From NCBI GenBank assembly GCA_016213245.1, contig JACRBC010000068.1:1-64000 (forward strand): a stretch of DNA of 64,000 nt. Direction: 5' to 3'. Each line of letters begins with the position of its first letter. The first letter of the stretch is position 1. Made by a program: the position numbers and the translations under genes. Under the pieces are notes generated by a model. It ran no database searches. It saw nothing but the letters and a program-made list of their open reading frames with translations, and was not told the origin of the DNA. The DNA is from Candidatus Solibacter usitatus. GTDB lineage: Bacteria; Acidobacteriota; Terriglobia; Bryobacterales; Bryobacteraceae. This document shows, in pieces, positions 6,518-58,483 of the stretch.

Positions 6518-6518
6518 T

Positions 6519-9908: not shown

Positions 9909-9919
9909 TTAGAGTTGGC

Positions 9920-10050: not shown

Positions 10051-10054
10051 TCGA

Positions 10055-10078: not shown

Positions 10079-10109
10079 AAGAGAGATCCTGCCGATGGAG
10101 GGTTATCTG

Positions 10110-14193: not shown

Positions 14194-14211
14194 GGAGCGA
14201 AGGAGGCGCTG

Positions 14212-14442: not shown

Positions 14443-14471
14443 GCTCCTGAGGCGCACGAGGCTACACTGGA

Positions 14472-15093: not shown

Positions 15094-15178
15094 GCCTGGG
15101 CCTGCCGGGCAGTCATTCCGCTGACAACCCCGAATGATAAACTGGCGTTCGAATCAGGGCCGCCTGAGGAGGACGCAT

Positions 15179-41872: not shown

Positions 41873-42355
41873 CTACTTCGCGGCGGGGGGCTCGGGCGTG
41901 GGCGCGGCCTTGGGCCGGTCGATCTGGGCGATTTTGCCGTCGACGACGCGGACGCGGACCTCGCCGCCGTCGCTGGTGGTGTAGCGGAGGATTTCCTCAT
42001 CCGACGTGGTGATGGAGAAGGCGGGCTTACCGGCCTTGGCGATCAAATCGGCGCGGAGGGCGCCAGCGTCGATGCCGTCGAAGGCGGAGAGTGGGGGCTT
42101 GGGCAGGGGTTTGGCGGGTAGGTAGGAGCGGGAGGCCGCAGCGGAGGATTTTGCCGCTGGGGCTTCCGGCCTGGCGGGGGAGAGGGTCCCGTCGATGCGG
42201 CCCAGGGCCTTGGAGAGGGCGGAGGCGGTGGACTTCCCTGCCCCGGCGCCGGAGGTGGAGGTAGCCGCGGCGATGGCGCCGTATTCGACCATGGCCTGGG
42301 CAGAGGCGCAGGCGGCCAGCAGCACCAGGGCGCAGGGGACGATCCAGAGCCGCAT
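41873..42355 (-). CDS. Small secreted protein of unknown function
   Basis: A 160-residue protein starting at ATG 42355 with GGAGGG upstream. Signal peptide at residues 1-19 (ending ASAQA). After a Ser/Ala/Pro-rich linker a small C-terminal domain carries LIAKAGKPAFSITTSDEEILRYTTSDGGEVRVRVVDGKIAQI, split here by family unknown strands; it resembles SmpA/OmlA-type small b-domains. A longer frame upstream on this strand is antisense to the M23 and mtgA genes and is rejected. Confidence 0.65.
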   Translation of the reverse strand: MRLWIVPCALVLLAACASAQAMVEYGAIAAATSTSGAGAGKSTASALSKALGRIDGTLSPARPEAPAAKSSAAASRSYLPAKPLPKPPLSAFDGIDAGALRADLIAKAGKPAFSITTSDEEILRYTTSDGGEVRVRVVDGKIAQIDRPKAAPTPEPPAAK

Positions 42356-42442
42356 GAGTTCCCTCCAGTGAGCAGTGTAGGCCGATTGCGGGCGGATGTC
42401 AGCGGGGAAAACACCTAGGGCGGGGGACAAATCAACCGCGCA

Positions 42443-42478
42443 ACCCCCTCCCTCACGGTCGGGGCTCTGACGGGCGGG
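42443..42478. repeat. Dispersed GC-rich repeat copy
   Basis: One copy, cctcacggtcggggctc followed by tgacgggcggg, between the small secreted gene and the M23 peptidase. It matches the 34.6-kb copies almost base for base. Confidence 0.6.
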
Positions 42479-42490
42479 TATTCTGGATGA

Positions 42491-43297
42491 ATGCGGTTGA
42501 TTCTGCTGCTGGCGGTGATGATGGGTCTGCGGGCCGAGGTCCGGCAGGGCGATGTGATCCGTGTGGCCGGGCCGGGCGAGTCGGCGCGGATGAACGGGCG
42601 AACGGTGCGGCTGTACGGGCAGGCTGACGGAAGCCGGCTGGGGCTGATGCCGGTACCGGCGGCGGAGAAGCCGGGCGACTACGCGCTGGAGGTGCTGGAT
42701 GCGAGCGGCAAGGTGGTGCGCAGCGGAGACGTGGAAGTGAAGGACGCGCGGTTTCGCAGGCAGAACGTCCTCATCGCCAAGCAGACGGCGGCGCTGGCGG
42801 CGTCGGAGGAGGAGACCAGGCTGGTGCGGGCGTTCCTGCAGGCGGAGACGGAGGGGCGTTATTGGGCCGACCCGTTGGGGTTGCCGCTGGCGGGGTGCAT
42901 GATCTCGCCGTACGGCGTGCAGCGATTCCATAACGGGATACCGACGGGGAACGTGCACGGCGGGTGGGACCAGAGAGGGGGCAAGGGGACGGCGGTGCGG
43001 GCGGCGGCGGCGGGGGTGGTGCGGATCGCGAAGATGTTCGAACTGCGGGGCGGGACGGTAGGGATCGACCACGGGCAGGGGCTGGAGACGATGTACCTGC
43101 ACATGTCGGGATTCGCGGTGCAGGAGGGGGCGGAGGTGAAGGAAGGGGAGGTGGTGGGCTATGTGGGGTCTACCGGGCGTTCGACGGGGCCGCACCTGCA
43201 CTGGTCGATATTGGCCAACGGGGTGGCGGTGAATCCGGCGCAATGGGTGAAAGTGAAGGCGTGCGCGGCGCAGGCGGCGGCGGGGAAGAAGAAGTAG
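42491..43297 (+). CDS. M23-family metallopeptidase (LytM domain)
   Basis: A 268-residue exported protein with a short signal (residues 1-15). The C-terminal LytM domain keeps the zinc ligands His156 and Asp160 in HGGWD and His237 in GPHLHW, plus catalytic His204 in MYLHMS. It cuts peptide cross-links in peptidoglycan. The N-terminal ~100 residues are a b-rich domain. It converges on mtgA with 2 bases between, so a hydrolase and a transglycosylase for the cell wall sit side by side. Confidence 0.9.
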   Translation: MRLILLLAVMMGLRAEVRQGDVIRVAGPGESARMNGRTVRLYGQADGSRLGLMPVPAAEKPGDYALEVLDASGKVVRSGDVEVKDARFRRQNVLIAKQTAALAASEEETRLVRAFLQAETEGRYWADPLGLPLAGCMISPYGVQRFHNGIPTGNVHGGWDQRGGKGTAVRAAAAGVVRIAKMFELRGGTVGIDHGQGLETMYLHMSGFAVQEGAEVKEGEVVGYVGSTGRSTGPHLHWSILANGVAVNPAQWVKVKACAAQAAAGKKK

Positions 43298-43299
43298 GT

Positions 43300-43989
43300 T
43301 CAGTGGCCCATGAGGGTCATGCGCTGGAGGATGATGGCGGAGTAGCGGTCCATGCGGGCGGGGGAGCGGCGGCGGGGGCTGGGCAGGACGGCGGCGAGGT
43401 GGGCGGCCTGGTCGCGCGAGAGGCGGGCGGCGGAGGTGCGGTAGTGGAAGCGGGCGGCGGCCTCGGCGCCGAAGACGCCGGGCGCCCACTCGATGTTGTT
43501 GAGGTAGAGTTCGAGGATGCGGCGCTTGTCGAGGATCAGTTCGGCCAGGGGCACGATGGCGGCCTCCATGCCTTTCCGGAAGAAACCGCCGCGGGTAGTA
43601 AGAAAGATGTTTTTGACCAGTTGCTGGGAGATGGTGGAGGCGCCGCGGAGGCGGCCGCGGTCCTGGTCGTCGTCGAGGGCTTCGTCGATGGCGTGCTGGA
43701 TCTCGGTCCAGTCGAAGCCGTGGTGCAGGTAGAAGCGGCCGTCCTCCGCGGCGACGACGGCCCACTGGAGGTGGGGCGAGATCTGGGCGAGGGGCACCTG
43801 GACGTGCTTTTTCATGTACTTGCCGGGCTTGAACCAGGATTCCACGCGGCGCTCGAGCTGGAGTGCGGTGGTGGGTGGATTGAACAGCTTCAGGGCGAGG
43901 AGGGACAGTACGATCCAGCCGAAGACCAGGGCCAGAGTGATCAGCGACCAGCGGAGGAAGCGGCGAGCGAGGTTTGACTTGGGAGCCAA
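43300..43989 (-). CDS. mtgA: Monofunctional peptidoglycan transglycosylase MtgA
   Basis: A 229-residue GT51 enzyme with a TTG start; no ATG is nearby. One N-terminal membrane helix (residues ~12-36) anchors it. The catalytic glutamate is in AAEDGRFYLHHGFDW, followed by RGASTISQQLVKNIFL, RRILELYLNNIEWAPG and the final FHYRTSA, all GT51 signatures. It polymerises lipid II glycan chains in the periplasm without a transpeptidase domain. It lies opposite the M23 peptidase gene. Confidence 0.95.
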   Translation of the reverse strand: MAPKSNLARRFLRWSLITLALVFGWIVLSLLALKLFNPPTTALQLERRVESWFKPGKYMKKHVQVPLAQISPHLQWAVVAAEDGRFYLHHGFDWTEIQHAIDEALDDDQDRGRLRGASTISQQLVKNIFLTTRGGFFRKGMEAAIVPLAELILDKRRILELYLNNIEWAPGVFGAEAAARFHYRTSAARLSRDQAAHLAAVLPSPRRRSPARMDRYSAIILQRMTLMGH

Positions 43990-44076
43990 GGACCAGGGTA
44001 CGTCAGTTTGGGGCCGGAGAGGGGTGGGTGAAATGAATCAGTATTCTGGCATTGTGATTGCGGGGTAAAGCAGGTT

Positions 44077-45510
44077 ATGGCAGTTCAGCCGTTGCAGTAC
44101 AAACCGAACCCGAAGGCGCCCAGGCAGATCTTACCTGTTTTGAATGCTGAGGTTAGAGCCGTTACATCGCAGGAGGTGGCGCTTGGATTCACTCCGGAGC
44201 AGGTGCGCGTAGAGGCGCAGCGATGCTTGCAGTGCGCCAAACCAACCTGCATTGACGCCTGCCCGATCCATATCGACATTAAGAGGTTCATCGCGCGGCT
44301 GGCCGAAGGCGAGTACCAGGCGGCGCACGACGTGATCAGCGAGCAGAGCCCATTTCCGGGGGTGTGCGGGCGGGTCTGCCAGCATGAGCTGTTCTGTGAA
44401 GACGTCTGCATCGTGGCCAAGAAGTGGGAGCCGGTGGCGATCGGGAGCCTGGAGCGGTTCGCGGCGGACCACGCCCGGCTGCGAATGCAGGAGCTAGCGC
44501 ACAGCTACCCCAAGCCTACGGGCAAGAAAGTGGCGCTGGTGGGCAGCGGACCGGCGTCGTTGATCGCGGCCTACGACCTGGTGCGGAACAACTACCGGGT
44601 GACGGTGTTTGAGGCGCTGCACAAGCTGGGCGGAGTGCTGGCCTACGGGATCCCGAACTTCCGGCTGCCGCGGGAGATCCTGCACGAGGAGATCGCGCGG
44701 CTGCAAAACATGGGAGTGGAGTTCGAGGTGGATTTCATCGTCGGCAAGACGGCGACGCTGGAGGAGCTGTTTGAGGAGGGGTTCGAGGCGGTGTTCATCG
44801 GCACGGGCGCGGGATTGCCGTACATGATGGGCATTCCCGGCGAGAACCTGGTGGGCGTCTACACGGCGAACGAGTTTCTGACGCGCATCAACCTGATGGA
44901 GGCGTTCCGGTTTCCAGACGCGCCGACGCCGGTGCGGGTGGGCGCGCACACAATCATCGTCGGCGGCGGCAACTCGGCGATGGATGCGGCGCGGTGGGCC
45001 AAGCGCATGGGGAGCGATGTGACCGTTCTGTACCGGCGCGGGCGGGCGGAGCTGAAGGCGCGGCTGGAAGAGATCGAGCACGCCGAGGAAGAGGGCGTAC
45101 GGTTCGAGTTCCTGGCGGCGCCGGTGGCGCTGTTTGGGGACGAAAACGGGTATGTGAAGGAAGTGGAGTGCATCCGGATGGAGCTGGGCGAACCGGACGA
45201 GAGCGGGCGGCGATCGCCCGTACCCATTGCCGGCAGCGAGCACCGCATCCCTGTGGACACCGTTGTGGCGGCCATCGGCCAGGCGCCGAATCCGACGCTG
45301 CAAAAGGCCACGCCGCAGTTGATCACCAAGCGAGGCAAGATCGTGGTGGACACCAAGGGCGAGACGTCGATGCCGCACGTTTTCGCGGGCGGGGACGTGG
45401 TACGGGGAGGCTCGACGGTGATCCTGGCGATGAAGGACGGCCGTCTGGCGGCGCAGGCGATCCATGAGGTGCTGAGCGGCGTGGCGGCCGAGGTGGAGGT
45501 GGCGCAGTGA
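44077..45510 (+). CDS. NfnB-like / glutamate-synthase-small-subunit-type oxidoreductase
   Basis: A 477-residue flavoprotein of the GltD/NfnB family. N-terminal 4Fe-4S motifs are CLQCAKPTCIDACP (about residues 50-63) and a second set CGRVCQHELFCEDVC. Then an FAD-binding loop (VGSGPASLIAAYDL), an NAD(P)H-binding loop (IVGGGNSAMDAARWAK) and FAGGDVVRGGSTVI. With the next gene it forms the two-subunit Nfn complex, which couples NADH, NADPH and ferredoxin by electron bifurcation. The adjacent NfnA-like gene overlaps by 4 bases (GTGA), which favours Nfn over glutamate synthase, since no large gltB gene is present. Confidence 0.85.
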   Translation: MAVQPLQYKPNPKAPRQILPVLNAEVRAVTSQEVALGFTPEQVRVEAQRCLQCAKPTCIDACPIHIDIKRFIARLAEGEYQAAHDVISEQSPFPGVCGRVCQHELFCEDVCIVAKKWEPVAIGSLERFAADHARLRMQELAHSYPKPTGKKVALVGSGPASLIAAYDLVRNNYRVTVFEALHKLGGVLAYGIPNFRLPREILHEEIARLQNMGVEFEVDFIVGKTATLEELFEEGFEAVFIGTGAGLPYMMGIPGENLVGVYTANEFLTRINLMEAFRFPDAPTPVRVGAHTIIVGGGNSAMDAARWAKRMGSDVTVLYRRGRAELKARLEEIEHAEEEGVRFEFLAAPVALFGDENGYVKEVECIRMELGEPDESGRRSPVPIAGSEHRIPVDTVVAAIGQAPNPTLQKATPQLITKRGKIVVDTKGETSMPHVFAGGDVVRGGSTVILAMKDGRLAAQAIHEVLSGVAAEVEVAQ

Positions 45511-46343
45511 ACAGGATACTGGCAAAGAGGCAACTGGCGCCGGAGGTGACGTTGCTGGAGGTGGAGGCGCCGAGGATCCAGCGGCGGTGGAAGCCGGGGA
45601 TGTTCATCATCATCCGGCCGCTGGCCAATAGCGAGAGAATCCCGCTGACGATTGTGGATTCGAGCGCCGAACGGCAGTCGATCACGATGGTGATCCAGGC
45701 GATCGGCAAGACGACGAAGGAGGCCGTGGCGCTGGAGCCGGGCGACGCCCTGTGCGACCTGGTGGGGCCGCTGGGAGAGGCGGCGACGATGACCACAGAC
45801 CAGAAGGTGGTGTGCATGGCCGGCGGGGTGGGCGTGGCCGAGCTGCTGCCGGTGGCCAAGGCGTTTCACGAGGCGGGCAACCACGTGACGGCGCTGTGCG
45901 GAGCGCGGTCGGACAGCTACAGGATTCTGGATGAAGAGCTGAAGGCGTCGGTGGACGAGCTCCAGTGGGCCACCGACGATGGGACTTTCGGGTTTCACGG
46001 CAACGTGGTCCAACTGCTGAAGAGCCTGGCTGGTCCGGGGACATTCAGCGAGGGGCACGTCATCGGGCCGATTCCGATGATGAAGGCGGCGGCGGAAGCC
46101 ACGCGGGATTGGGGCTTGAAGCTGCACGCGAGCTTGAACCCGGTGATGATCGACGGGACGGGGATGTGCGGCGGTTGCCGGGTGACGGTGGGGAGCGAAG
46201 TGAAGTTCGCCTGCGTGGACGGACCGGAGTTCGACGCGCACCTGGTGGATTTCGACGAGCTGACGCGGCGGAACCGGGCCTACCGGGAGATGGAGCAGGA
46301 GTCGCTGCGGCACGTGTGCCGGGTGGGGCTGGACGTGCGGTAG
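45507..46343 (+). CDS. NfnA-like FAD/2Fe-2S subunit (sulfide/dihydroorotate dehydrogenase-like)
   Basis: A 278-residue protein with GTG start overlapping the previous stop. It begins with a ferredoxin-reductase b-barrel (RIPLTIVDSSAER for FAD), then the NAD-binding fold (MAGGVGVAELLPVA) and a C-terminal 2Fe-2S cluster: DGTGMCGGCRVTVG plus FACVDGPEFDAHLVDF. This is the layout of NfnA and of the dihydroorotate dehydrogenase electron-transfer subunit. Partnered with an NfnB-type gene it should form NADH-dependent ferredoxin:NADP+ oxidoreductase. A terminator-like hairpin follows. Confidence 0.87.
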   Translation: MNRILAKRQLAPEVTLLEVEAPRIQRRWKPGMFIIIRPLANSERIPLTIVDSSAERQSITMVIQAIGKTTKEAVALEPGDALCDLVGPLGEAATMTTDQKVVCMAGGVGVAELLPVAKAFHEAGNHVTALCGARSDSYRILDEELKASVDELQWATDDGTFGFHGNVVQLLKSLAGPGTFSEGHVIGPIPMMKAAAEATRDWGLKLHASLNPVMIDGTGMCGGCRVTVGSEVKFACVDGPEFDAHLVDFDELTRRNRAYREMEQESLRHVCRVGLDVR

Positions 46344-46437
46344 TGAGGTAGCAGCCACGCCGGCCCTGAGCCGGGTAGGATTGAGGGGTGGGCAGAGAAG
46401 CGGTCGGTCCCGTGAATTGTTGGAGTTGGGGGGATTC

Positions 46438-46495
46438 ACCCAACCGTGGTGGATTTCACCCCATCGGCTGGGGAGCCGGCACCGTTGGGTTTTTC
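46438..46495 (+). terminator. Intrinsic terminator after the Nfn pair
   Basis: A 7-bp outer stem (acccaac 46438-46444 with gttgggt 46484-46490) encloses a second hairpin (cggct/agccg with a GGGG loop) and is followed by TTTT. It ends the Nfn transcript about 100 bases after the stop. Confidence 0.6.
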
Positions 46496-46528
46496 GTCAG
46501 CCTGTACAAATCATTGAAAAATATCAAG

Positions 46529-46558
46529 TTGACGAAGTAGAGGATAATAAGGTATGTT
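46529..46558 (+). promoter_or_regulatory. Sigma-70-like promoter of the multiheme cytochrome operon
   Basis: TTGACG at 46529-46534, an 18-base spacer and TATGTT at 46553-46558 lie in an unusually AT-rich pocket just after the Nfn terminator. It leaves an ~80-base leader before the cytochrome ATG at 46645. Confidence 0.5.
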
Positions 46559-46644
46559 TGGCCTGGATCATGCAGTGCAGATCCTGAGTCGTGTCAGACG
46601 CGGCCTCGGCCGCGGAAATCATAAGTAAGAAAGAGGAGAGCCAC

Positions 46645-48780
46645 ATGCGATCGCATTCACGCTCTAGCGGCTGGATGAAGTGGGCACTCGTGGTGATGGT
46701 GCTGGTGGCATCGACGGCACTGGTCAGCTCGACAAAGTCCCCGTTCACCCCGCAAGACAAGGCCTATTACGCGGACGAAGCACTGGTGAACTTCGTGCGC
46801 CCGGGACTGGTGTTCAAGATTATCAGCCACGAGATCGCGGCCGACGGAACCGTGAAGGTCCGCTTCAAGATGACGGACCCGAAGGGAGTGGCGCTGGAGC
46901 GGGAAGGGATCAACACGCCGGGCGTGGTGACCACGAGTTTCGTGCTGTCGACGATTCCGAACGAGTCGAAGTGGCAGCAGCCGTACACGACGCGTCTGAA
47001 GACGAGCACGTATGCGCCGACGGCGGGCAAACAAGCGAGGCAGGCGTCAACCGATACGGGCGGCACTTACGCGAAAGCCGCCGACGGCGAGTACGTCTAC
47101 ACGTTCGGGCTGAAGCTGCCGGCGGCATACCAGAAGAACGCCACGCACACGATCGTGGTGTTCGGCAACCGGAACCTGTCGGAGTTCGGCATGAGTACGA
47201 ACTACGCGACCGACATTTACAACTTCGTGCCCGACGGTACGCCGGTGAAGAAGATCCGCGAGGTATTCAAGAGCGCGTCGTGCAATAAGTGCCACGACAA
47301 CCTGCGCTTCCACGGCGGATCGCGCGTGGGCGTGGAAGCTTGCGTGATCTGCCACGTGCCGCAATACGCGACCGGCGGCCAGACGGTGTCGAACCTGAAT
47401 CCGGAGACGGACAACACCATCGACATGACGGTGATGATCCACAAGATCCACATGGGTTCGGAGCTGCCGAGCGTGGTGGGGGGAAAGCCGTACCAGATTA
47501 TCGGCTACGGCAACGCTGTGAGCGACTTCTCCTACGTCAACATGCCGTCGAGGACGAACAACTGCCAGTGGTGTCATGAGAAGGGCAACGAGCAGGCGGC
47601 CCAGAAGGACGCCTGGCTCATGCAGCCGACGCGCGCGGCTTGCGGCGCCTGCCACGATACGGTGAATTTCCAGACCGGACAGGGGCACGTGAACCTGCCG
47701 CAGCCGAGCGACAGCCAGTGCGCGAACTGCCATATTCCGCAGGGCGAGATCGACTTTGACGCATCGATCAAGGGCGCGCACGTCGTGGAACAGGATTCCG
47801 CGCTTGTGCGCGGCGTGATCGCCAAGTTCGTCAACATCGAGAACACCAAGCCGGGCCAGAAGCCGACCATCACGTTTTCGCTGACGGACCGTTCGGGCAC
47901 GGCGATGGACATCAACGAACTGATTCCCGGCGCCGGCCGCGGCCGCATCGGTTTTACGCTGGCGGCGCTGACGGGCGGCGACTACGGCCAGGGCATTTCC
48001 ACGGCGACGACGAGGGGCTACGTTCAGGACGCCCCGACGGCGACCACCGGGTTCACCGGCACGCCGGGCCTGTACAAATACACGATTGCGACGGCCATCC
48101 CGGCTGACGCCAAGGGCACATGGGCGATGCAGATTGAGGGCCGCTCGGATGAGAAGGTCCTCGCCGGGACACTCAAGGAACGCATCGTCGAGGTGAACCT
48201 GCCGAACCAGGTGCGATACTTCTCGGTGGATAGCAGCGCAGTCGCGCCGCGCAGGACGGTGGCGAATACGGCGACCTGTAACAACTGCCACTCGAACCTG
48301 GCGCTGCACGGCCTCAACCGGAACGCCGTGGAGAGCTGCATTATCTGCCACAACCCGGCGATGACCGACGCGGCCCGCCGGCCGGCCGACAAGATGCCGG
48401 CCGAGTCGATCAGCCTGGCGTCGATGGTGCACCGGATCCACACCGGAGACGACCAGCCCAACGGCTATGTCCTCTACGGTCGTGGCGGAGCGGCGGATTT
48501 CAGCAAGGCCACTTTCCCGCCGCCGGCCATCACCGCGAAGTGCACCATGTGCCACGTCAGCGGCACAGAAAATGCCCCGGCCAGAGGCACGGCGAACGTG
48601 ACCGATCCTCGCGGCTGGATCACGCCGGTGGGGCCGACCAGCGCGGCCTGCCTGGCGTGCCACTCCAGCAAGGACGTCGCGTCGCACGCGCTGGCCAACA
48701 CGACGACGCTGGGCGAGAGCTGCGCGGCCTGCCACGGGCCGAACAGCGAGTTCGCGGTGTCGAAGGTACACGCGCAGTAG
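46645..48780 (+). CDS. OmcA/MtrC-family decaheme c-type cytochrome
   Basis: A 711-residue protein; the ATG at 46645 follows GAGGAG. Signal peptide at residues 1-32, with no lipobox cysteine, unlike Shewanella MtrC/OmcA. Ten CXXCH haem motifs fall into two pentads: near residues 213, 233, 307, 333, 359 and 545, 565, 633, 669, 693. Between them sits a ~180-residue b-rich domain. This two-times-(b + five-haem) plan is that of MtrC/OmcA, the surface terminal reductases of extracellular electron transfer. A DmsE-type decaheme and a porin-like barrel follow, as expected for a conduit. Substrate could be metal, humics or another partner. Confidence 0.9.
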   Translation: MRSHSRSSGWMKWALVVMVLVASTALVSSTKSPFTPQDKAYYADEALVNFVRPGLVFKIISHEIAADGTVKVRFKMTDPKGVALEREGINTPGVVTTSFVLSTIPNESKWQQPYTTRLKTSTYAPTAGKQARQASTDTGGTYAKAADGEYVYTFGLKLPAAYQKNATHTIVVFGNRNLSEFGMSTNYATDIYNFVPDGTPVKKIREVFKSASCNKCHDNLRFHGGSRVGVEACVICHVPQYATGGQTVSNLNPETDNTIDMTVMIHKIHMGSELPSVVGGKPYQIIGYGNAVSDFSYVNMPSRTNNCQWCHEKGNEQAAQKDAWLMQPTRAACGACHDTVNFQTGQGHVNLPQPSDSQCANCHIPQGEIDFDASIKGAHVVEQDSALVRGVIAKFVNIENTKPGQKPTITFSLTDRSGTAMDINELIPGAGRGRIGFTLAALTGGDYGQGISTATTRGYVQDAPTATTGFTGTPGLYKYTIATAIPADAKGTWAMQIEGRSDEKVLAGTLKERIVEVNLPNQVRYFSVDSSAVAPRRTVANTATCNNCHSNLALHGLNRNAVESCIICHNPAMTDAARRPADKMPAESISLASMVHRIHTGDDQPNGYVLYGRGGAADFSKATFPPPAITAKCTMCHVSGTENAPARGTANVTDPRGWITPVGPTSAACLACHSSKDVASHALANTTTLGESCAACHGPNSEFAVSKVHAQ

Positions 48781-48796
48781 TCTGAAGCTAAACTAC

Positions 48797-48830
48797 GGGC
48801 AGGCCCTCCAATGGGGGTCTGCCCTTTCTT
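48797..48830 (+). terminator. Intrinsic terminator-like hairpin between the two decaheme genes
   Basis: The outer stem gggcag/ctgccc (48797-48802 with 48819-48824) encloses further GC pairs and is followed directly by TTTCTT. It lies 17 bases after the OmcA-like stop and 17 bases before the DmsE-like start. It could separate or attenuate expression of downstream genes. Confidence 0.7.
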
Positions 48831-48846
48831 ATAGTCGGGAGTACTC

Positions 48847-49821
48847 ATGCGATTCCGGTTACTGCCGTTGACGGCCGCCCTGCTGGTGGCGGCGTTGACT
48901 GCGGCTCCGCGCCAGGATCAAAAGGCGGCGCCGCAGAAACCAGGAGAGAAGGCCGCGGCGCAGCAGGACGCCAAGGCGGCCAAGAGGGAGTTCGCCGGGT
49001 CTGAGACCTGCGCGACCTGTCACGAGGACATTAGTACCGGTTTCAAGAAGAATCCACATTCGACGCTGGAGACGAACAAGAAGCGAGGTTTCGACGGCAA
49101 GGCCTGCGAGGGCTGCCACGGTCCTGGATCAGTGCACGCGGAGACGAACTCCGGCGACGACATCCGCAGCCCGAAGAGGATGAAGGCGGCAGCGATCGAC
49201 GCGATGTGCCTGGGCTGCCACAAGAACCAGCCGACACACGTGGGCCGGTTGCAGGGCAGCCACGCCCGGAACGCGGTGCCGTGCACGTCGTGCCACGACA
49301 TGCACAAGACCGGAGAAGAGTCGAGCGAGCGCCGGTTGAAGAGCACGGCCGGGATCAACAAGGCGTGCGCGAGCTGCCACCCGGACGTCTGGGCCTCGTT
49401 CCAGAAACCGAACCGGCACAAGCTGCCGGAGGGCGGGATGAGCTGCACGAGCTGCCATAACCCGCACGCCAGCTTCATGAACAGGAATCTGCGCCTATCG
49501 GGCGGCAACGAACCGGGGTGCTTCGCCTGCCACGGCGACAAACGGGGACCCTTTGTCTTCGAGCACGCTCCGTCAAGGAACGAGTCCTGCTCGACGTGCC
49601 ATGAGCCGCATGGCTCCACCAACCCGCGGATGCTGAAGCGGGCCGAGATTGCTCCGCTGTGCCTGGAGTGCCACTCGAACATTCAGGCTTCGCCGCCGGC
49701 CACGACGGTGGGCGGCATTCCGCCGGCGATCCACGATCTACGCAGCCCGCGATACCGGAACTGCACGATCTGTCACCAGAAGATTCACGGTTCGAATGCG
49801 AATGGGGCGTTGCTGAGATGA
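48847..49821 (+). CDS. DmsE/MtrA-type periplasmic decaheme c-type cytochrome
   Basis: A 324-residue exported protein with GGGAG upstream of the ATG. Signal peptide at residues 1-20 then a Lys/Ala/Gln-rich linker. Ten CXXCH motifs are spread evenly from residue ~56 to the end (CATCH, CEGCH, CLGCH, CTSCH, CASCH, CTSCH, CFACH, CSTCH, CLECH, CTICH), as in DmsE/MtrA, which pass electrons from the periplasm into an outer-membrane barrel. Its stop overlaps the ATG of the barrel gene (ATGA), a strong hint of coupled expression and complex formation. Confidence 0.93.
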   Translation: MRFRLLPLTAALLVAALTAAPRQDQKAAPQKPGEKAAAQQDAKAAKREFAGSETCATCHEDISTGFKKNPHSTLETNKKRGFDGKACEGCHGPGSVHAETNSGDDIRSPKRMKAAAIDAMCLGCHKNQPTHVGRLQGSHARNAVPCTSCHDMHKTGEESSERRLKSTAGINKACASCHPDVWASFQKPNRHKLPEGGMSCTSCHNPHASFMNRNLRLSGGNEPGCFACHGDKRGPFVFEHAPSRNESCSTCHEPHGSTNPRMLKRAEIAPLCLECHSNIQASPPATTVGGIPPAIHDLRSPRYRNCTICHQKIHGSNANGALLR

Positions 49822-51920
49822 GATCCTGTCTGGCCCTGCTGCTCCCGTTAGCGCTTCTGTCGGGAGAGCCAGCCATCAAGAAGGAAGCGAATACTTCGAA
49901 CTCTGCCGGGCGGCCCACGGCTCGCGCAGCCACCGCTCGCAAGGCGCGCGTGAAGAAGGTGAGCCTGACCGCGCCCGCCCCGGGCCTGGCCGTGCCCGAG
50001 CAGGCGCCGGAGAAGAAGGAGCAGAAGGAAGCCGCTCCCGCTCCGAAGGCGGAGAAGGCTTTGACGGGCTACATCGACGCCGGAGCGCGCTGGGTGGGCC
50101 GGGCGGGCGACTTCAACACCTACCGCAGCATGGTCAACCTGTCGCAGGGACTGCGGCTGGTGGGCCTGGACCTGGGCTGGGAACCGGCCGGCAACAAGCT
50201 GGTCGACAGCCTCCGTGTGCAGGCCGGCAATTGGGGCGGCGATCCGTACAACACGGCGCGCCTGGACATATTGAAGCGCGGCAAGTACCGTTACAACGGC
50301 AACTACTCCAACATCGCCTATTACAACCACCTGCCCTCTTTCGCCGATCCGGCGGTGAGCAGCGGGAAATTCATGAACCAGCGGGCCTATGACACGGCGA
50401 TCAGCAACTTCGACAACGAACTGCAGATCATGCCGGGGGCGAGGATCGTCCCGTACTTCGGTTTCTCGCGGAACTCGAGTCTCGGCAACGGCATCACGCC
50501 GCTGGTGGAGAACGGCAACGAGTATCCGCTGCGGAACGTGGTGGATTGGGGCCAGAAGGAGATCCGCGGCGGGGTGCGGGTGGAGATGCAGCGCTGGCAC
50601 GCCACGCTGGAGGAGGGCGGCACATGGTTTGACGACAACCAGTCGGTGTACTCCACGCAAGCGCTGAGCGGCAACCGGACTTCCCCCTATTTCGGGCAGG
50701 CGCTGGTGCTGACCAGCGGCGGGCAATCGTATCGCATCCGCGGGACGGGCGCCTACACCAAGGGCCTGGTGACGGCCAACCCGACAAACTGGCTGGACCT
50801 TTCGGGCGCGTTCGTGCGCAGCCAGCCGCAGACCTTCGGCCAGCTCAATCAGAGCCAGACGGGGACTTTCGCCGAGCCGGGGAGCGTGCTGTTCTACGCC
50901 AGGGCGGTGGACTACGCCTATGGCAACGGACGAGCTCCGCACACCTCAGCCACGGCCGCGGCCGAGGTTCGGGCGGGGTCGAGACTCCGTTTCAGGCAGG
51001 TGTGGGAGACGGACCGTTTCGTGATCAACGGCACGGGCACGGAGCGCTCGACCGTGTATCCGACGCTGGCTTCACAGCCGTATCAAACGGTCACGCCGGA
51101 CGGCGAGCGGCTGGAATCCACCCGCAGCCGGGAGCAAGTGGAAGCGCTGTTCGATCTTTCGAAGAACTTCATGCTGCGCGGCGGCTACCGCTGGGAGTGG
51201 GGCAGGTCCCTGATGAAATCGGACCCGTTCGTTCCCGGGCCTGAGTACGAACGGGGCGAACTCAAGCGCGGCGTGCTTCTGGCCGGATTCATGGCCAGGC
51301 CGCTGAGCCGCCTGTCGGTGAACGGCGACTTCGAGGCCGGCGACGGCGAGAAGACGTACTACCGGATCGGGCTGATGGACACCTCGCGCTACCGGCTGCA
51401 GGGGAGAGTCACGTTGCCGGCGGACATGTTCTTCAACGTGATCTTCACGCGCTTTGAGAACCAGAACCCCAACAAGGGGATCAACTACGACTACCAATCG
51501 CAGGCGACTTCGGCCCAACTGCAATGGATGCCCAAGGGAGGCAAGCGCGTGAGCATCCTGGCGGACTACTCGCGGTCCGGGGTCCGAAGCGACATCAACT
51601 ATCTGTACCCGCTGGGACTGTTCAACGTGCGATCCCTGTACATCGACAAGGCGAATACGGGGATGGTGCTGGCCGACCTGCGTCTGCCGGTGGCCAAGAA
51701 CTATGAAGCGAAGCTGACATTCGGCGGCTCGTTTGTGACCACGGCCGGTTCGAGGCCGTCGCGCTACTACCAGCCGCAGGGCCGGATCCAGCTCCCGGTG
51801 ACGCCGAAGCTGGAATTCTTCTCCGAGTGGAGGTACTATGGCCTGTCGCAGCCGTATTACTACACCTACGAGGGGTTCCGGTCGCACATGTATATGGGCG
51901 GGCTCCGCTTCCTGCTTTAA
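49818..51920 (+). CDS. MtrB/PioB-like outer-membrane b-barrel
   Basis: A 700-residue protein with a signal peptide (residues 1-17) and a charged Ala/Pro/Lys-rich linker to about residue 80. The rest has alternating b-strands with aromatic girdles, such as DSLRVQAGNWGGDPYNTARL, RVSILADYSRSGVRSD and a C-terminal segment ending RFLL. The length and strand pattern fit MtrB/PioB, which sheath the MtrA-type cytochrome. The N-terminal CxxC of Shewanella MtrB is absent. Its ATG overlaps the decaheme stop. Identification rests mainly on context, since such barrels are poorly conserved. Confidence 0.75.
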   Translation: MRSCLALLLPLALLSGEPAIKKEANTSNSAGRPTARAATARKARVKKVSLTAPAPGLAVPEQAPEKKEQKEAAPAPKAEKALTGYIDAGARWVGRAGDFNTYRSMVNLSQGLRLVGLDLGWEPAGNKLVDSLRVQAGNWGGDPYNTARLDILKRGKYRYNGNYSNIAYYNHLPSFADPAVSSGKFMNQRAYDTAISNFDNELQIMPGARIVPYFGFSRNSSLGNGITPLVENGNEYPLRNVVDWGQKEIRGGVRVEMQRWHATLEEGGTWFDDNQSVYSTQALSGNRTSPYFGQALVLTSGGQSYRIRGTGAYTKGLVTANPTNWLDLSGAFVRSQPQTFGQLNQSQTGTFAEPGSVLFYARAVDYAYGNGRAPHTSATAAAEVRAGSRLRFRQVWETDRFVINGTGTERSTVYPTLASQPYQTVTPDGERLESTRSREQVEALFDLSKNFMLRGGYRWEWGRSLMKSDPFVPGPEYERGELKRGVLLAGFMARPLSRLSVNGDFEAGDGEKTYYRIGLMDTSRYRLQGRVTLPADMFFNVIFTRFENQNPNKGINYDYQSQATSAQLQWMPKGGKRVSILADYSRSGVRSDINYLYPLGLFNVRSLYIDKANTGMVLADLRLPVAKNYEAKLTFGGSFVTTAGSRPSRYYQPQGRIQLPVTPKLEFFSEWRYYGLSQPYYYTYEGFRSHMYMGGLRFLL

Positions 51921-51980
51921 TGGAACAAAGGGGAGGGGCCGCCGCCCTCCCCCTCTTGACCGTTGAGGGAGGTCCCGAAG

Positions 51981-53066
51981 ATGAAAAAGTTCTATGCGCT
52001 ACTGGCCGTTCTGTCGACGGCCGCCCAGGGTGCGGTTCTGGTGGGCGACTCGGCGCGCGGCACCGAGGTATTCAAGAGCCAGAATTGCGTGACGTGCCAC
52101 AGCGTGAACGGGGAGGGCGGCAAGGCCGGTCCTGACCTTGGCAAGCGGGCCAGCCGCGGCTACACGCCCTCGGAGCTCACCTCGCTGATGTGGAATCACG
52201 CGCCGGCGATGTGGAGCGCGATGGAAAAGGCGAACGTGGCCAAGCCGAAGCTGAACAGCCAGCAGGCGGCGGACCTGTTCGCCTACTTCTACGCGGCGCG
52301 CTACTTTGAGCGCAAGGGCGACGCCGGCCGGGGCCGCGAAGCCTTTGCAAAAGGTGGCTGCTCGGAGTGCCATGCCATCGGCGGCGGCGGCGGGGCCGCC
52401 GGCCCGGCGGTGGTGAAGTGGGAGTCGGTGGCCGACCCGATCGAGCTCTGCCGGCAGATGTGGAACCACTCGGGCAAGATGCGGGAGGCGATGAAGGCCA
52501 AGGGGATGAGGCAGCCGCAACTGACGGCCGCCGAGATGAACGACATCACGGTGTACCTGCAGAACCTGCCGGCCACGCGCGGCCTGAAGCCGCAGTTCCA
52601 GCCGGCCGCGCCGGGCACGGGCGAGATGCTGTTCGAGTTGAAGGGCTGCAAGGGATGCCACCACGATGCGAACGCGCTGGTCAAGGGCCCGCAGTTCCGG
52701 GCGGCAAGCGATTTCGCGGCGGGGATGTGGAACCACTCGGCCAAGATGCAGCAAAGGGCGGAGATCCGGCCGGAAGAGATGAAGCGCCTGGTCGGCTACC
52801 TGTGGGCGCTGCAATTCGCCAATGAGGGCGCGAACGCGGCGCGGGGCGCCAAGGTGTTCGAGGCCAGGGGCTGCGGCAACTGCCACGGCAAGGGCATCGC
52901 GCCGGTGCTAGCGCTGGGCGAGCGTGCGACATCGTACGAGATGATCGCCGTGTTGTGGGACCATGGTCCGGCCATGCACAAAGAGATGAAGGCGAAGGGC
53001 ATTGCCTGGCCGCGCTTCGAGAGCACGGAGATGGCGGACCTGCTGGCGCATCTGCGGGGGCGGTAG
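51981..53066 (+). CDS. Tetraheme c-type cytochrome made of four repeats
   Basis: A 361-residue exported protein with GGGAGG 8 bases before the ATG. Signal peptide at residues 1-18. Four cytochrome-c-like domains follow, each with one haem motif (CVTCH, CSECH, CKGCH, CGNCH). Each domain also has a conserved MWNH or LWDH followed about 4 residues later by Met, the likely sixth haem ligand: MWNHAPAM, MWNHSGKM, MWNHSAKM, LWDHGPAM. It probably shuttles electrons in the periplasm to the decaheme conduit. It lies 60 bases after the barrel gene, in the same direction. Confidence 0.9.
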   Translation: MKKFYALLAVLSTAAQGAVLVGDSARGTEVFKSQNCVTCHSVNGEGGKAGPDLGKRASRGYTPSELTSLMWNHAPAMWSAMEKANVAKPKLNSQQAADLFAYFYAARYFERKGDAGRGREAFAKGGCSECHAIGGGGGAAGPAVVKWESVADPIELCRQMWNHSGKMREAMKAKGMRQPQLTAAEMNDITVYLQNLPATRGLKPQFQPAAPGTGEMLFELKGCKGCHHDANALVKGPQFRAASDFAAGMWNHSAKMQQRAEIRPEEMKRLVGYLWALQFANEGANAARGAKVFEARGCGNCHGKGIAPVLALGERATSYEMIAVLWDHGPAMHKEMKAKGIAWPRFESTEMADLLAHLRGR

Positions 53067-53081
53067 AGGTTCCTTTCCGGA

Positions 53082-53236
53082 CCCGCTCGCTGACGCGCGG
53101 GGCTGTACGTGCGGGCTGTACCCGCGGGCTGGACCCGCTCGCTAACGCGCGCGGCTCTACGCGCGGGCTGTACGCGCGGGCTGTACCCGCTTGCTAACGC
53201 GCGCGGCTCTACGCGCGCGGCTGTACGCGCGCGGCT
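53082..53236. repeat. Tandem array of short GC-rich units ending at the argS stop
   Basis: About nine units of the type ggct(c/g)tac(gcgcg/cccg) follow one another, interleaved with three copies of cgct(c/t)gct(a/g)acgcg. They are a diverged form of the dispersed repeat family found near 34.8 kb. The array ends at the very base before the argS stop codon. Confidence 0.7.
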
Positions 53237-55189
53237 CTACATGTACTCGGGTACGGGAATCCCGAGCACCGCTTCCAGCGAGCGCTCGAGTTGCTCCTTG
53301 CAGTAGACGGCCAGCCAGAGCAGGAATGTCCGCTTCTCGGCGTCCTGTTCAGCCAGAATCGGGTAGTCGTGATAGAAGGCGTTGAACGCCTGCGCAAGCT
53401 GGAATGCGTAGCGGGCCACGTGGGAGGGCTCGCCGGCGGCCAGCGCCGCGTCCAAAGCTTTGCTGGAGCGGCTGGCGGCGAGCAGGAGCTGCCAGAAATC
53501 CTCGGACTGCAACTGCCGGTCGAGCTTCGGCGCGTCGAGTTGGGCCCGGAAATCGGGGAGGGTCCCGCCGCGCTCGGCCATCTTGCGCAGGATGTTGCGC
53601 GCCCGCACGGCGGCGTACTGGACGTAAGGGCCGGTCTCGCCTTCGAACGAGAGCGCCTCCTGCAAGTCGAAGGCGATGACGGTGTTGCGCGTGAACTTCA
53701 AGAGGAAGTAGCGCAGGGCGCCGATCGCAAGTTGAGTGGCCACCAGCAAGCGCTCGCCTTCCGGCTTTTCCGCGTGGCGCGAGTCGACCTCGCCCTTGGC
53801 CTTCTCGATGAGCTTGTCGATCAGGTCGTCGGCCTTGACGCCGAGCCCCTTGCGGCCGCTCACCTCGACGTAGGCTTTCCGGCTGTCCTCCTCCGAAAGC
53901 GGGATGCCCAGCTCGACACAGGTGCGCGGCGACAGCGCCACCATCTCGTAGGAGAAATGGATGGACCGGTCTGCCTGCCCGTTGTAGCCGAGGGCGCGCA
54001 GACCGGCGACAACCACGTCCTGCAGGTACGATTGCCGCGAGTCGATGACGTTGTAGACCTCCGTGCCCCCGCCGAAGGCCGGCGCGGGCTGGTCGCAGGC
54101 CTCGCCGGTGGCCACCCACAACGGGTGGCCGTCGGGGTAGGTGCGCAGAGGCTTGTAGTGGAAGTCCAGACCCAGCAGGCCGAACTTCCACATCTGGTAG
54201 GCGATGTCCTTGCCGACGTATGTCACCGTGCCGTTGGAGCGGACAATCACTTTGGCGTCGTCGTCACCGGCTTCCTCGCCGGCCGGCGTGTCGCGGAAGT
54301 GGGCGGCGCCCATCACCCAGCAGCCCTTGTTCTTGCCTTCCTCGACGAAGTAAATGGCCCCGCGTTCTTTCAGTTGTTCGAACGCCTTCTTCCAGAACTC
54401 CAGGTGCAGGATCTCGCTCTCGCGGGGCAGCACGTCGTAGGCGATGCCCAGGCGCCACATCGTGTCCAGGTGGCATTCGACAATGGCGTCGGCCACCAGG
54501 TGGGCGAGTTCGGCGATTTCTCCCTCGCCGTGCTCGATGGTGTGCAGCGTGTCGCGGCGCCACTGAACGGCTTCCGGATGGTCGTGGTAGTAGCTGGAAG
54601 TCCGGGCATAGAGATCCCAACAGTAGTAGTCGAAGCGCGGCGCGGCGATCAGCGCTTTGACGCCGCTCAATGTTTTGTTTTCCAGATGGCGGAAACCGAC
54701 CACCACATCGGCCACCTGCACACCGGTGTTATCGATGTAGTTCTGAACCTCCACTTTCCGGCCCGAGGCCCGCAGCATGCGCACGAAGGTATCGCCGAGT
54801 ACGGCGTTGCGGAGATGGCCGATGTGGGCCGCCTTGTTCGGGTTGATGTTGGTGTGCTCGACGATGATCTTGCCCGCAACCTCTTCCGCTGCCGAGGCGG
54901 CGCCGGAGAGCAGCGCCGCGGCATACTCGCCGCGTTTGAGCCGGACGTTCAGGTAGCCGTTGCCGGCCACTTCCACGGCGGCAACCCCGGGGATGGATGG
55001 AAGTTGGGAGGCCAGCTCTTCGGCGATCGCCTTGGGGGCCTTCTTCAACTGACGAGCCAGCGTGAATGCAACCGGCAGCGCCAGTTCGCCGAAACTCGAC
55101 TGCTTCGGCTGCTCGATCACGACCGGAACGCCGGCGCCGAAGCGATCGGCTAGAAACCGCGCGAAGCTGTCGCGCACCTGCTTTTCCAT
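53237..55189 (-). CDS. argS: Arginyl-tRNA synthetase
   Basis: A 650-residue class I synthetase that charges tRNA-Arg. The ATG at 55189 is preferred over a TTG 10 codons earlier. The N-terminal Add1 domain is followed by AHIGHLRNA (HIGH motif) and the region corresponding to KMSKS reads SGRKGLGVKADD, a variant common in this family. The C-terminal anticodon-binding (DALR) domain contains GPYVQYAAVRARNILRK. It ends in PVPEYM. The gene diverges from the ferredoxin gene with 95 bases between. Confidence 0.96.
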   Translation of the reverse strand: MEKQVRDSFARFLADRFGAGVPVVIEQPKQSSFGELALPVAFTLARQLKKAPKAIAEELASQLPSIPGVAAVEVAGNGYLNVRLKRGEYAAALLSGAASAAEEVAGKIIVEHTNINPNKAAHIGHLRNAVLGDTFVRMLRASGRKVEVQNYIDNTGVQVADVVVGFRHLENKTLSGVKALIAAPRFDYYCWDLYARTSSYYHDHPEAVQWRRDTLHTIEHGEGEIAELAHLVADAIVECHLDTMWRLGIAYDVLPRESEILHLEFWKKAFEQLKERGAIYFVEEGKNKGCWVMGAAHFRDTPAGEEAGDDDAKVIVRSNGTVTYVGKDIAYQMWKFGLLGLDFHYKPLRTYPDGHPLWVATGEACDQPAPAFGGGTEVYNVIDSRQSYLQDVVVAGLRALGYNGQADRSIHFSYEMVALSPRTCVELGIPLSEEDSRKAYVEVSGRKGLGVKADDLIDKLIEKAKGEVDSRHAEKPEGERLLVATQLAIGALRYFLLKFTRNTVIAFDLQEALSFEGETGPYVQYAAVRARNILRKMAERGGTLPDFRAQLDAPKLDRQLQSEDFWQLLLAASRSSKALDAALAAGEPSHVARYAFQLAQAFNAFYHDYPILAEQDAEKRTFLLWLAVYCKEQLERSLEAVLGIPVPEYM

Positions 55190-55284
55190 TCGGTGGAACA
55201 CTGCGGAGACCTCTGGCAATGCACCAGTTTAGCAATGGAGCGATGTGAGACCACTTTGGTCCTATATTGAGGTATACTGACTGT

Positions 55285-55680
55285 GTGGCTAAAGTAACCT
55301 TCCTACCGGCCAACGTGACGTACGAGTTTGACCTGGAAAGCCTGCCTTATCAAGAGCATGGCAAACCGAAGTCGTTTCTGGACATTGCCCAGAACAACGG
55401 TTTTCACCTGGAGCACGCCTGTGGCGGCAATTGCGCCTGCACCACCTGCCACGTGGTGGTGAAGCGGGGGGAGGAGTTCCTCAGCGCCCTGGAAGACGAT
55501 GAGGCGGACAAACTCGACATGGCAGCGGACCTCCAGGTGGGTTCCCGGCTGGGATGCCAGGTGTTCTTCGAGCGGGACGGGGAAGTAGTGGTGGAGATTC
55601 CGTCCTGGAACCGCAACTATGTCAGCGAGGGCGGCGGGTCGATGAACCTGGGTGACGCGATTCCCGCGGGGAAGAAGTAG
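55285..55680 (+). CDS. 2Fe-2S ferredoxin (ISC/adrenodoxin type)
   Basis: A 131-residue protein with GTG start. The binding pattern CGGNCACTTCHV holds three of the four cluster cysteines and GCQVF the fourth (LGCQVFF), as in adrenodoxin/ISC Fdx. It carries an acidic loop (EDDEADKLDMAADLQ) typical of this class. The longer C-terminal tail (EIPSWNRNYVSEGGGSMNLGDA) is non-canonical. It probably supplies electrons for Fe-S assembly or a redox partner. The next gene converges, 3 bases away. Confidence 0.88.
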   Translation: MAKVTFLPANVTYEFDLESLPYQEHGKPKSFLDIAQNNGFHLEHACGGNCACTTCHVVVKRGEEFLSALEDDEADKLDMAADLQVGSRLGCQVFFERDGEVVVEIPSWNRNYVSEGGGSMNLGDAIPAGKK

Positions 55681-55683
55681 GAA

Positions 55684-56550
55684 TCAGCGCACGAGGAGGT
55701 CGAACGACGACAGCGGCGCGCTGAGGCTGAGGGTGAGCGTGGACTGGCTGCATTCGGCCTGAAGGCCATCGAGCGTGCGCAACAGCCCGGTGTCGGTCTG
55801 AAGCGCGCGCGCGCGGAACAGGGCGATGGCGCCCCGGATGGTATCGCGGGCCTGGCGCGCCTGGCCCGCGTTCGAGTATTGGGCCGTCAAGCTGGCGTCC
55901 ACGCCTGTCGCCAGGTTGGCATGCGCCGCGACGCCGGTGACGTTCCTGGAGAAGGACCCCGCTAAAGCCGGCACGAGTGTCCCCGGATTCCTGGCGACGA
56001 GCCAGGCATGGTCTGGCGGAAGAGTCTCGACCTTGGCGATGAGATCCTGCGGGGGACTCTCTCCAGCCTTGTCGCGGTTGTCGATGACGGACTGCAAGCC
56101 GGCGACCTTGCCGGCGATGGCGACACCGGAGTTGAGGAAGAGCACGGCCGCCGAGTCTTTCACCAGGATGTAGTAGCCCTTGTAGTTGCTCCGCTGCATG
56201 CCGGGCACATCGAACCTTGGCTCGAGCCCGAACTGCCCGCCGAACTTGCCCCGGAAGAAGAGCAGCGATCCTGACGGCGACGAAGCGAGAACGACTTCCC
56301 AGATGTCGTTGGCGGGGTCGAGGCCGGTGGTCTGGCGGAATCTCTCCAGCGCCTTGATCCTGCGGCCGGCCACGTAGGCCTCAAAGAAGGGTGTCTGCTG
56401 GAGGCGGTCGATGCGCAGGCCGGCGAGCACATTGGCGCTGGAGGGGATGAGGGGAGCGATGGCGGCGTCGATGCGGGCGTGCGTGGGCTGGCGCCGGCAA
56501 CCCGCCGCCGCGGCGAGGCAGATGAGGGCGATGATCGTGGCGGATCGCAT
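55684..56550 (-). CDS. Predicted lipoprotein of unknown function
   Basis: A 288-residue protein with a lipobox LAAAAGC near residue 18, so probably a membrane-anchored exported protein. The mature part is a/b with ANVLAGLRIDRLQQTPFFEAY and LVKDSAAVLFLNSGVAIAGKVAGL. I recall similar hypothetical lipoproteins in Acidobacteria. It starts 6 bases after the TetR gene stop, so it likely shares its transcript. Confidence 0.7.
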   Translation of the reverse strand: MRSATIIALICLAAAAGCRRQPTHARIDAAIAPLIPSSANVLAGLRIDRLQQTPFFEAYVAGRRIKALERFRQTTGLDPANDIWEVVLASSPSGSLLFFRGKFGGQFGLEPRFDVPGMQRSNYKGYYILVKDSAAVLFLNSGVAIAGKVAGLQSVIDNRDKAGESPPQDLIAKVETLPPDHAWLVARNPGTLVPALAGSFSRNVTGVAAHANLATGVDASLTAQYSNAGQARQARDTIRGAIALFRARALQTDTGLLRTLDGLQAECSQSTLTLSLSAPLSSFDLLVR

Positions 56551-56556
56551 GGCGGA

Positions 56557-57153
56557 TCAGGCGAGGGCGGCGCTGATGAGGGAATCGAGCGCGAGCTCGA
56601 GGCGGTCCCACTCCTGCTCGGAATCGAGGTGGATTCCGTTGTACACGTCCGAGGTCCTGGCGCGCAGCAACAGGTAGGTGCCTCCGGCGGCGAGAACGGC
56701 GCCCAGGGCGGCGAGGTCGATGTCCGGCTGCGGGCGAAAAGTGCGCATGAGACGCGTGGCGAACTCCTCGCGGTGGCGGGCCAGCGCGCGGGTGAGCTCG
56801 TTGCGCTCCAGCAGTTCCCAGCGCATGATCTCGAGCGTGAGCGGGTGCTGGCGGAGCCAGCGCAGCAGGCCGAGCAGGGCGCGGCGCGCCAGGTCCAGAT
56901 TGGTTTCGGTATCCGATCCGCTCCCGAGAAGTTCGGCTTGGGTGGGCCAGAAGCCGCCTTCTTCCGCATAGGCTTTGAGCAATTGCGGAATGCCGCCGAA
57001 GTAGCGGTAGATGAGGACCTTGTCCACGCCGGCCTCGCGGGCGACGGCATTGACGCCCACACCTTTGAAGCCCTGCCGGGCAAGCAGCCGGCCGACCGCC
57101 TCAATGATCGAGTGGCGCGTGCGGGCGCGGTCGCGGGGTCTGGCCTGGGTCAA
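56557..57153 (-). CDS. TetR/AcrR-family transcriptional regulator
   Basis: A 198-residue repressor. The N-terminal helix-turn-helix (residues ~15-58) reads GRLLARQGFKGVGVNAVAREAGVDKVLIYRYFG, the standard TetR pattern. The C-terminal ligand-binding part is helical. It lies between a Gfo/Idh oxidoreductase (16 bases upstream) and a lipoprotein (6 bases downstream) on the same strand, so it may control that group. Confidence 0.92.
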   Translation of the reverse strand: MTQARPRDRARTRHSIIEAVGRLLARQGFKGVGVNAVAREAGVDKVLIYRYFGGIPQLLKAYAEEGGFWPTQAELLGSGSDTETNLDLARRALLGLLRWLRQHPLTLEIMRWELLERNELTRALARHREEFATRLMRTFRPQPDIDLAALGAVLAAGGTYLLLRARTSDVYNGIHLDSEQEWDRLELALDSLISAALA

Positions 57154-57169
57154 ATCGGCAACCCTCCGC

Positions 57170-58483
<1,314 letters not shown>

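Follow-up and report, generated by a model that had tools for sequence, protein, structure and literature searches.

The 64-kb window (64,000 nucleotides, the whole stretch of Candidatus Solibacter usitatus DNA analysed here) carries a four-gene operon that probably encodes an MtrCAB-type transmembrane electron conduit, with electrons flowing outward to Fe(III) or humics. The genes lie on the + strand between positions 46645 and 53066 and encode, in order, a decahaem cytochrome of the OmcA/MtrC type (MtrC), a decahaem cytochrome of the DmsE/MtrA type (MtrA), a 700-amino-acid barrel and a four-haem cytochrome termed here the carrier, an order, place and strand already recognised in an earlier sequence-only reading of the DNA. 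The 24 haem motifs of that reading are recovered by a direct count of CXXCH, with 10 in MtrC, 10 in MtrA, none in the barrel and four in the carrier, compared with 0.01, 0.08, 0 and 0.01 per shuffled protein of the same composition, and only two further stop-free CXXCH motifs occur across the six frames of the window. The proposal that these genes form the set of a transmembrane electron conduit is supported by the protein families, by the MtrB-like fold predicted for the barrel and by the conserved linkage of the genes.

Both decahaem proteins score over the curated cut-offs in the profile searches that the sequence-only reading had proposed as a check, and both match solved Mtr proteins. MtrC scores 487.3 bits against TIGR03507 (cut-off 209.3), also matches PF22113 in the Pfam scan, and among PDB sequences aligns with MtrF (PDB code 3pmq, E 1.9e-28) as well as with OmcA, MtrC and UndA. 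MtrA scores 239.3 bits against the DmsE model TIGR03508 (cut-off 192.2), and among PDB sequences it matches chain A of 6r2q best (E 7.6e-40), a row in which the molecule is labelled "Cystathionine beta-synthase" and the entry title is "Structure of the Mtr complex".

The AlphaFold2 model of the barrel, built from an alignment of 62 sequences, has 28 strand elements with a predicted local distance difference test score (pLDDT) of 84.2 and a predicted template modelling score (pTM) of 0.74, residues 1-69 being of low confidence. The top Foldseek match of the model is MtrB (6r2q_B; E 1.5e-14, template modelling (TM) scores 0.65/0.69), and the other 49 matches listed are other outer-membrane receptors, TonB-dependent and similar, with TM of 0.46 or less. 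VIA-align superposes the model onto MtrB 6r2q_B with Z 26.4 and a root mean square deviation of 3.4 Å over 549 residues, followed by FhuA with Z 20.2 and 6.5 Å; the identity with Shewanella MtrB in the structural alignment is 12-13%. A TonB receptor was rejected as the identity of the barrel because these matches are weaker than that of MtrB. Five of the 22 aligned barrel relatives match PF11854 (MtrB_PioB) at E up to 1, and in the larger alignment eight of 62 members match it at E <= 0.001 (best 3.4e-9) with no other Pfam family matched there. The predicted fold, the adjacency to MtrA and the matches of these eight relatives bear out the earlier description of an MtrB/PioB-like barrel, and the profile matches to unrelated barrel families that had been named as a counter-indication were not found, PF11854 standing alone among the 62 relatives. 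An outer-membrane barrel of predicted MtrB fold is in this way encoded beside mtrA.

Distribution was assessed with the barrel as query in 257 genomes of the order, scoring the best few candidates per genome (four in most). A match at E <= 1e-5 is present in 209 of the 257 genomes and in 77 of 84 genera; by hand count 168 of these 209 genomes reach E <= 1e-40, and the other 41 have weak matches that may be paralogs, like one on contig C115 of the window's own genome. From the scan of named genomes 80 of 85 confirmed loci were kept, which were chosen by the barrel, so that their counts describe its neighbours and not overall frequency. Nearly all of them carry acidobacterial titles, and the few others (Arcobacter, Sumerlaeaceae, Acidimicrobiia) look mis-binned. 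MtrA lies directly upstream of the barrel in 80/80 loci. MtrC lies upstream of MtrA in 67 of the 73 loci with room for it, being missing in six, with seven undecidable at contig ends. The carrier directly follows the barrel in 41 loci, is missing with room in 31 and undecidable in eight, and the full four-gene cassette is found in 34 of 80. These counts rest on match positions, which replaced a stricter rule using the ends of open reading frames (ORFs), under which MtrA was counted in 73, MtrC in 64 and the carrier in 35 of the 80 loci. A simple gene caller applied to 20 picked regions, most of whose genomes recur among the 80 named loci, finds the full order in 13; the other seven comprise L052 and L056, cut by contig ends, L059, L067, L069 and L070 without the carrier (L069 also without MtrC), and L062, where the barrel is unlabelled. 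Within the genus of the window, MtrC over the cut-off and the carrier are each found in 9/9 genomes.

Some loci depart from this arrangement. MtrC is downstream of the barrel rather than upstream of MtrA in L125 and L137, and in L114 and L115 the carrier is replaced by another stretch with six and five CXXCH motifs, respectively, within 2.5 kb after the barrel. In L070 (G244:C12:18000-35500), a distant relative, an MtrA-like gene is called with 27 CXXCH motifs and represents a possible giant or fused MtrA.

Shewanella MtrB has an N-terminal CXXC motif and Shewanella MtrC is a lipoprotein with a lipobox, and the window lacks both of these features of the Shewanella-type (Group 1) MtrCAB. The barrel contains no CXXC, its sole cysteine being residue 4, and in the matched part of related barrels CXXC is found in 0/80 and no cysteine of any kind in 63/80. 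The window MtrC has no cysteine upstream of the first haem and hence no lipobox. A lipobox-like pattern anywhere N-terminal of the first haem is present in seven of 62 ten-haem MtrC sequences (the window sequence included), and a cysteine within 45 residues N-terminal of the FVRPG motif in 10 of the 59 assessable MtrC loci, 10 further loci not being assessable; by eye, the lipobox-like pattern lies inside the hydrophobic segment in only three of these loci (L090, L129 and L138). The absences noted earlier for the surface cytochrome and the barrel are confirmed and appear, from the sequences compared, to be mostly family traits, CXXC being absent from the whole family across the 80 loci and the lipobox absent as a rule.

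The carrier matches the Pfam class-I cytochrome c domains PF00034/PF13442, and in its AlphaFold2 model (pLDDT 84.5, pTM 0.85) the helix pattern repeats four times by our own reading. The name tetrahaem cytochrome given to it earlier is correct for the four haem motifs downstream of the barrel but not for the architecture, which consists of four tandem mono-haem class-I-like domains. All 39 sequences in the carrier alignment, picked for at least 80% coverage and including the window, have exactly four CXXCH motifs. A WxHxxxM motif follows CXXCH in 39, 39, 34 and 37 of the 39 sequences for domains 1-4, and the stricter form WxHxPxM in 39, 24, 21 and 37; the His or Met of this motif may provide the distal haem ligand. 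The usual Met ligand position in class-I cytochromes is the residue before a conserved Pro, which in the window carrier is Lys, Gln and Trp in domains 1, 2 and 4, so that the reading of the domains as ordinary His/Met class-I cytochromes was dropped. Fold matches of the whole carrier model are weak, with none at E <= 0.001 and the best (Z 4.3) to a single domain. The protein is a probable periplasmic electron carrier.

From these components we infer the formation and localisation of a complex, the role of the carrier, the outward direction and the acceptor. MtrA with its 10 haems would be threaded in the MtrB-fold barrel, spanning the outer membrane, and MtrC with a further 10 haems would dock on the outer face without a lipid anchor and hand electrons over to an acceptor outside the cell, for which Fe(III) minerals or humics are the likeliest. 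The carrier would link MtrA with quinol oxidases of the inner membrane by shuttling electrons across the periplasm. Candidates for these oxidases are encoded on contig C53 of the same genome, where a CbcL-like protein with nine CXXCH motifs and an FdnI-type cytochrome b domain (TIGR01583, 50.2 bits, below cut-off) is followed by an ImcH-like protein with one CX3CH and five CXXCH motifs, which matches NapC/NirT above the Pfam cut-off. The two proteins agree with what is described for CbcL and ImcH in the consulted parts of PMC6295460, which also state that ImcH homologs are found only in Fe(III) reducers and count 19 ImcH, two CbcL-type and no CymA homologs in Acidobacteria. The ImcH-like gene is present in 9/9 genomes of the genus, in two of them in pieces or cut. 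A further gene on this contig (L018, G000:C53:1-9000; 3286-6126, +) encodes a large CbcL-like protein with 19 CXXCH motifs and a C-terminal FdnI-type cytochrome b match.

The physiological role is best fitted by metal respiration because the same cassette is present in the likely genome of Paludibaculum fermentans P105T, which belongs to the same genus. This genome (G202) contains the full cassette (L053), whose OmcA/MtrC gene is one of two in the genome. P. fermentans P105T is a dissimilatory Fe(III) reducer (PMC8407742).

Several points weigh against the assignment of an outward MtrCAB conduit. The identification of G202 as P. fermentans P105T is likely but tentative, and a class-I cytochrome, MtoD, partners MtrAB homologs in Fe(II) oxidisers. 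The window barrel matches no family in Pfam and NCBIfam up to E 0.1, TIGR03509 and PF11854 included, 54 of the 62 aligned barrel members have no PF11854 match at E <= 0.001, and a profile of the 22 aligned members finds no match among PDB sequences up to E 10. Because lipobox and CXXC are lacking, the anchoring of MtrC and the assembly of the barrel must depart from the Shewanella route in some details. The 10 flanking proteins scanned (40994-58483), one of which (55684-56550) is without any match, include no inner-membrane quinol oxidoreductase, and the names of the CbcL-like and ImcH-like proteins on C53 rest on architecture, their NCBIfam matches being below cut-off. The assembly to which the window belongs, as contig C29, comprises 3.83 Mb in 153 contigs and is 78.6% complete, which limits claims of absence from the whole genome. 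We take the barrel as an MtrB by predicted fold and position, not by profile, and read the failure of the profiles as a limit of the profiles and not as a property of the conduit.

An inward conduit, in which a donor outside the cell, such as Fe(II) or Mn(II), would feed electrons through MtrC/MtrA and the carrier to the respiratory chain as in Mto/Pio, is unlikely. The class-I-like domains of the carrier would suit such a flow, one of them aligning with MtoD (4xxl) with Z 3.1 over 79 residues, but this Z falls in the range that a common arrangement gives, and the class-I build was rejected as proof of inward flow on account of the residues at the usual Met place. Inward operation is described for PioAB in the consulted parts of PMC8805035, and a RuBisCO-family gene occurs in three of the nine genomes of the genus; however, neither G202 nor the genome of the window, which is incomplete, yields a RuBisCO-family match, the operon has a full MtrC, the ImcH-like gene is common to all nine genomes and the cultured relative reduces Fe(III) (PMC8407742). 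A DmsE-like use, in which the conduit would feed an extracellular terminal reductase for dimethyl sulfoxide or another soluble compound and not minerals, is highly improbable. MtrA does score as "DmsE family" (TIGR03508), a model that covers MtrA-type proteins as well, but its closest PDB relative is the chain A of the Mtr complex given above, the operon includes a decahaem MtrC, no molybdopterin reductase is present among the 10 flanking proteins scanned, and a molybdenum hydroxylase 33 kb away is of another type. That the cytochromes are soluble periplasmic nitrogen- or sulfur-cycle enzymes beside an unrelated porin, an identity raised in the sequence-only reading and echoed by weak matches, below cut-off, between MtrA and NrfB/NrfH models and between the four-haem protein and SoxX, is scarcely credible and already largely refuted by the scores of MtrC and MtrA over the OmcA/MtrC and DmsE cut-offs, by the MtrB-like barrel located beside MtrA in all 80 loci and by the location of the genome's NrfH and NrfA-like pair apart from the conduit, on contig C43.

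The outward MtrCAB conduit proposed here belongs to a known kind, and the suggestion that it would be something new in this lineage is not supported, since the Group 5 MtrCAB catalogued by Baker et al. 2022 (PMC8805035) comes, in the consulted parts of that work, from Acidobacteriia only, either Bryobacterales or unclassified. In the same parts mtrB is followed directly, in each of its five members, by a tetrahaem cytochrome predicted to be periplasmic, with no inner-membrane quinone oxidoreductase near. As far as this description extends, the window conduit appears to fit Group 5 in every tested feature and to differ in none: mtrC, mtrA and mtrB are followed by the tetrahaem cytochrome, adjacent duplication of mtrC is absent, the flanking proteins scanned include no inner-membrane quinone oxidoreductase, and the host is of the Bryobacterales, the order of Paludibaculum, to which a genome of the window's genus (G208) apparently belongs. 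By position and haem number the carrier would be the c-cyt(group 5) of these authors, which accompanies all five of their members as described in those parts, whereas the carrier is missing in 31/72 related loci with room. L109 has two adjacent decahaem MtrC genes ahead of MtrA, a duplication not seen in Group 5 in what was consulted of Baker et al. That paper alone was returned by a full-text literature search on MtrCAB in Bryobacter, and acidobacterial decahaem proteins had already been proposed for Fe reduction in the consulted parts of Lipson et al. 2013 (PMC3669403). The additions made here to the known kind are the four-domain architecture of an optional carrier, the evidence on the predicted fold of the barrel, the complete lack of CXXC and predominant lack of a lipobox, and the connection to an Fe(III) reducer in culture; they are absent from the consulted parts of the published accounts, no dedicated literature search having been made for each item.

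In comparison with the Shewanella MtrCAB complex (6R2Q), the window shares decahaem MtrC and MtrA, a barrel of predicted MtrB fold and the order C-A-B, but differs in the low identity of its barrel, in the two missing motifs and in having a four-domain class-I-like cytochrome in the operon; the candidate quinol oxidases here are CbcL-like and ImcH-like in place of the CymA of Shewanella. MtrA and MtrB homologs and a class-I cytochrome partner (MtoD in Mto) are shared with MtoABD/PioABC, and the differences are the full MtrC and the fusion of the class-I-like domains as a tetramer. A broader proposal, which we regard as possible but doubtful, is that Bryobacterales conduits are a distinct Mtr build with an anchor-free MtrC, a CXXC-free barrel and a dedicated carrier of four fused class-I-like domains that takes its distal haem ligand from WxHxxxM in place of the customary loop Met. 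Such a build would be of old origin, passed on mainly by descent inside the order and less by transfer, and would underlie Fe(III) reduction in P. fermentans. The cassette in the likely genome of the cultured Fe(III)-reducing relative, together with MtrC and carrier throughout the genus, makes the conduit genetically testable. Because the MtrB profiles miss the window barrel and most of its aligned relatives, surveys requiring an MtrB profile match would under-count acidobacterial conduits.

The features of the region are listed in Table 1, in which the starts of MtrC and the four-haem cytochrome are chosen ATG codons inside listed ORFs. Of the boundaries first proposed, 46529 to 53066, the right edge stands, and the left edge corresponds only to a promoter-like match (one such match, against a chance expectation of 1.0); the N termini of relatives become conserved from the ATG at 46645 onward, and this codon is most likely the start of MtrC. 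The mtrA stop and barrel start overlap as ATGA, with the ATG in the frame of the barrel in 71/81 loci (74/81 by letters alone), which suggests that MtrA and the barrel are translationally coupled.

Table 1. Features of the conduit region in window coordinates
Feature	Position	Strand	Basis
Predicted MtrC-type surface decahaem cytochrome, 711 aa, 10 CXXCH	46645..48780	+	TIGR03507, PF22113, PDB MtrF 3pmq; hydrophobic N-terminal segment without lipobox
Terminator-like hairpin between mtrC and mtrA	48797..48824	+	Terminator-like site scan
Predicted MtrA/DmsE-type periplasmic decahaem cytochrome, 324 aa, 10 CXXCH	48847..49821	+	TIGR03508, PDB 6r2q chain A
Predicted MtrB-fold outer-membrane barrel, 700 aa, no CXXC	49818..51920	+	AlphaFold2 model, fold match 6r2q_B, PF11854 matches of relatives
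Four-domain class-I-like cytochrome c, 4 CXXCH	51981..53066	+	PF00034/PF13442, AlphaFold2 model
NfnB-like gene flanking the conduit	44077-45510	+	TIGR01316, 560.2 bits, over cut-off
NfnA-like gene flanking the conduit	45507-46343	+	NF004862 (PRK06222), 352.8 bits, over cut-off

Terminator-like sites in the region number seven compared with 5.0 expected, which is not significant as such. A hairpin similar to that between mtrC and mtrA is present in 6/6 close loci (the window, L071, L072, L073, L075 and L076), and overall in 34/66 mtrC-mtrA spacers compared with 82/330 shuffled spacers; as a family-wide feature it is unsupported outside the close relatives. It is a possible attenuator that would set the MtrC:MtrAB ratio. 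The Nfn genes are found upstream on the same strand in few of the 80 named loci, both in L071 and L076 and NfnA only in L075, and were for this reason rejected as operon members; they adjoin the conduit but are probably not part of it.

Other cytochrome loci occur elsewhere in the genome. A second Mtr-like cluster (L015, G000:C133:3000-22900; 1700-16981, -) includes an MtrB over cut-off (TIGR03509, 269.5 against 240.05), a decahaem DmsE, an MtrC with nine CXXCH motifs, a cytochrome with seven (PF13447) and cytochromes with eight and one, together with cupredoxin-like, GltD-like and Rieske genes, two cytochrome b parts and a carrier paralog. It is possibly a bc-complex-linked conduit; as a general quinol-side partner it is unlikely, its MtrB being found at E <= 1e-20 in 11/257 genomes of the order and in none of the other eight of the genus. 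Contig C115 has a decahaem DmsE-type gene with a distant barrel paralog after it but no MtrC (L014, G000:C115:5000-22000; 6663-9580, +), and a solitary decahaem OmcA/MtrC gene (413 bits) lies directly after an apparent groES-groEL, identified by eye, on contig C23 (L016, G000:C23:16000-35900; 10616-12643, +). A nitric oxide reductase with a fused cytochrome c-like domain (L155, G000:C19:42000-52000; 5175-7382, -) is the sole COX1-family match in the incomplete genome. Within the window itself, a DDE_3-type transposase gene is located at 1282-2511, and a 2Fe-2S subunit and molybdenum hydroxylase large subunit of the aldehyde/xanthine dehydrogenase type are encoded at 10444-13216.

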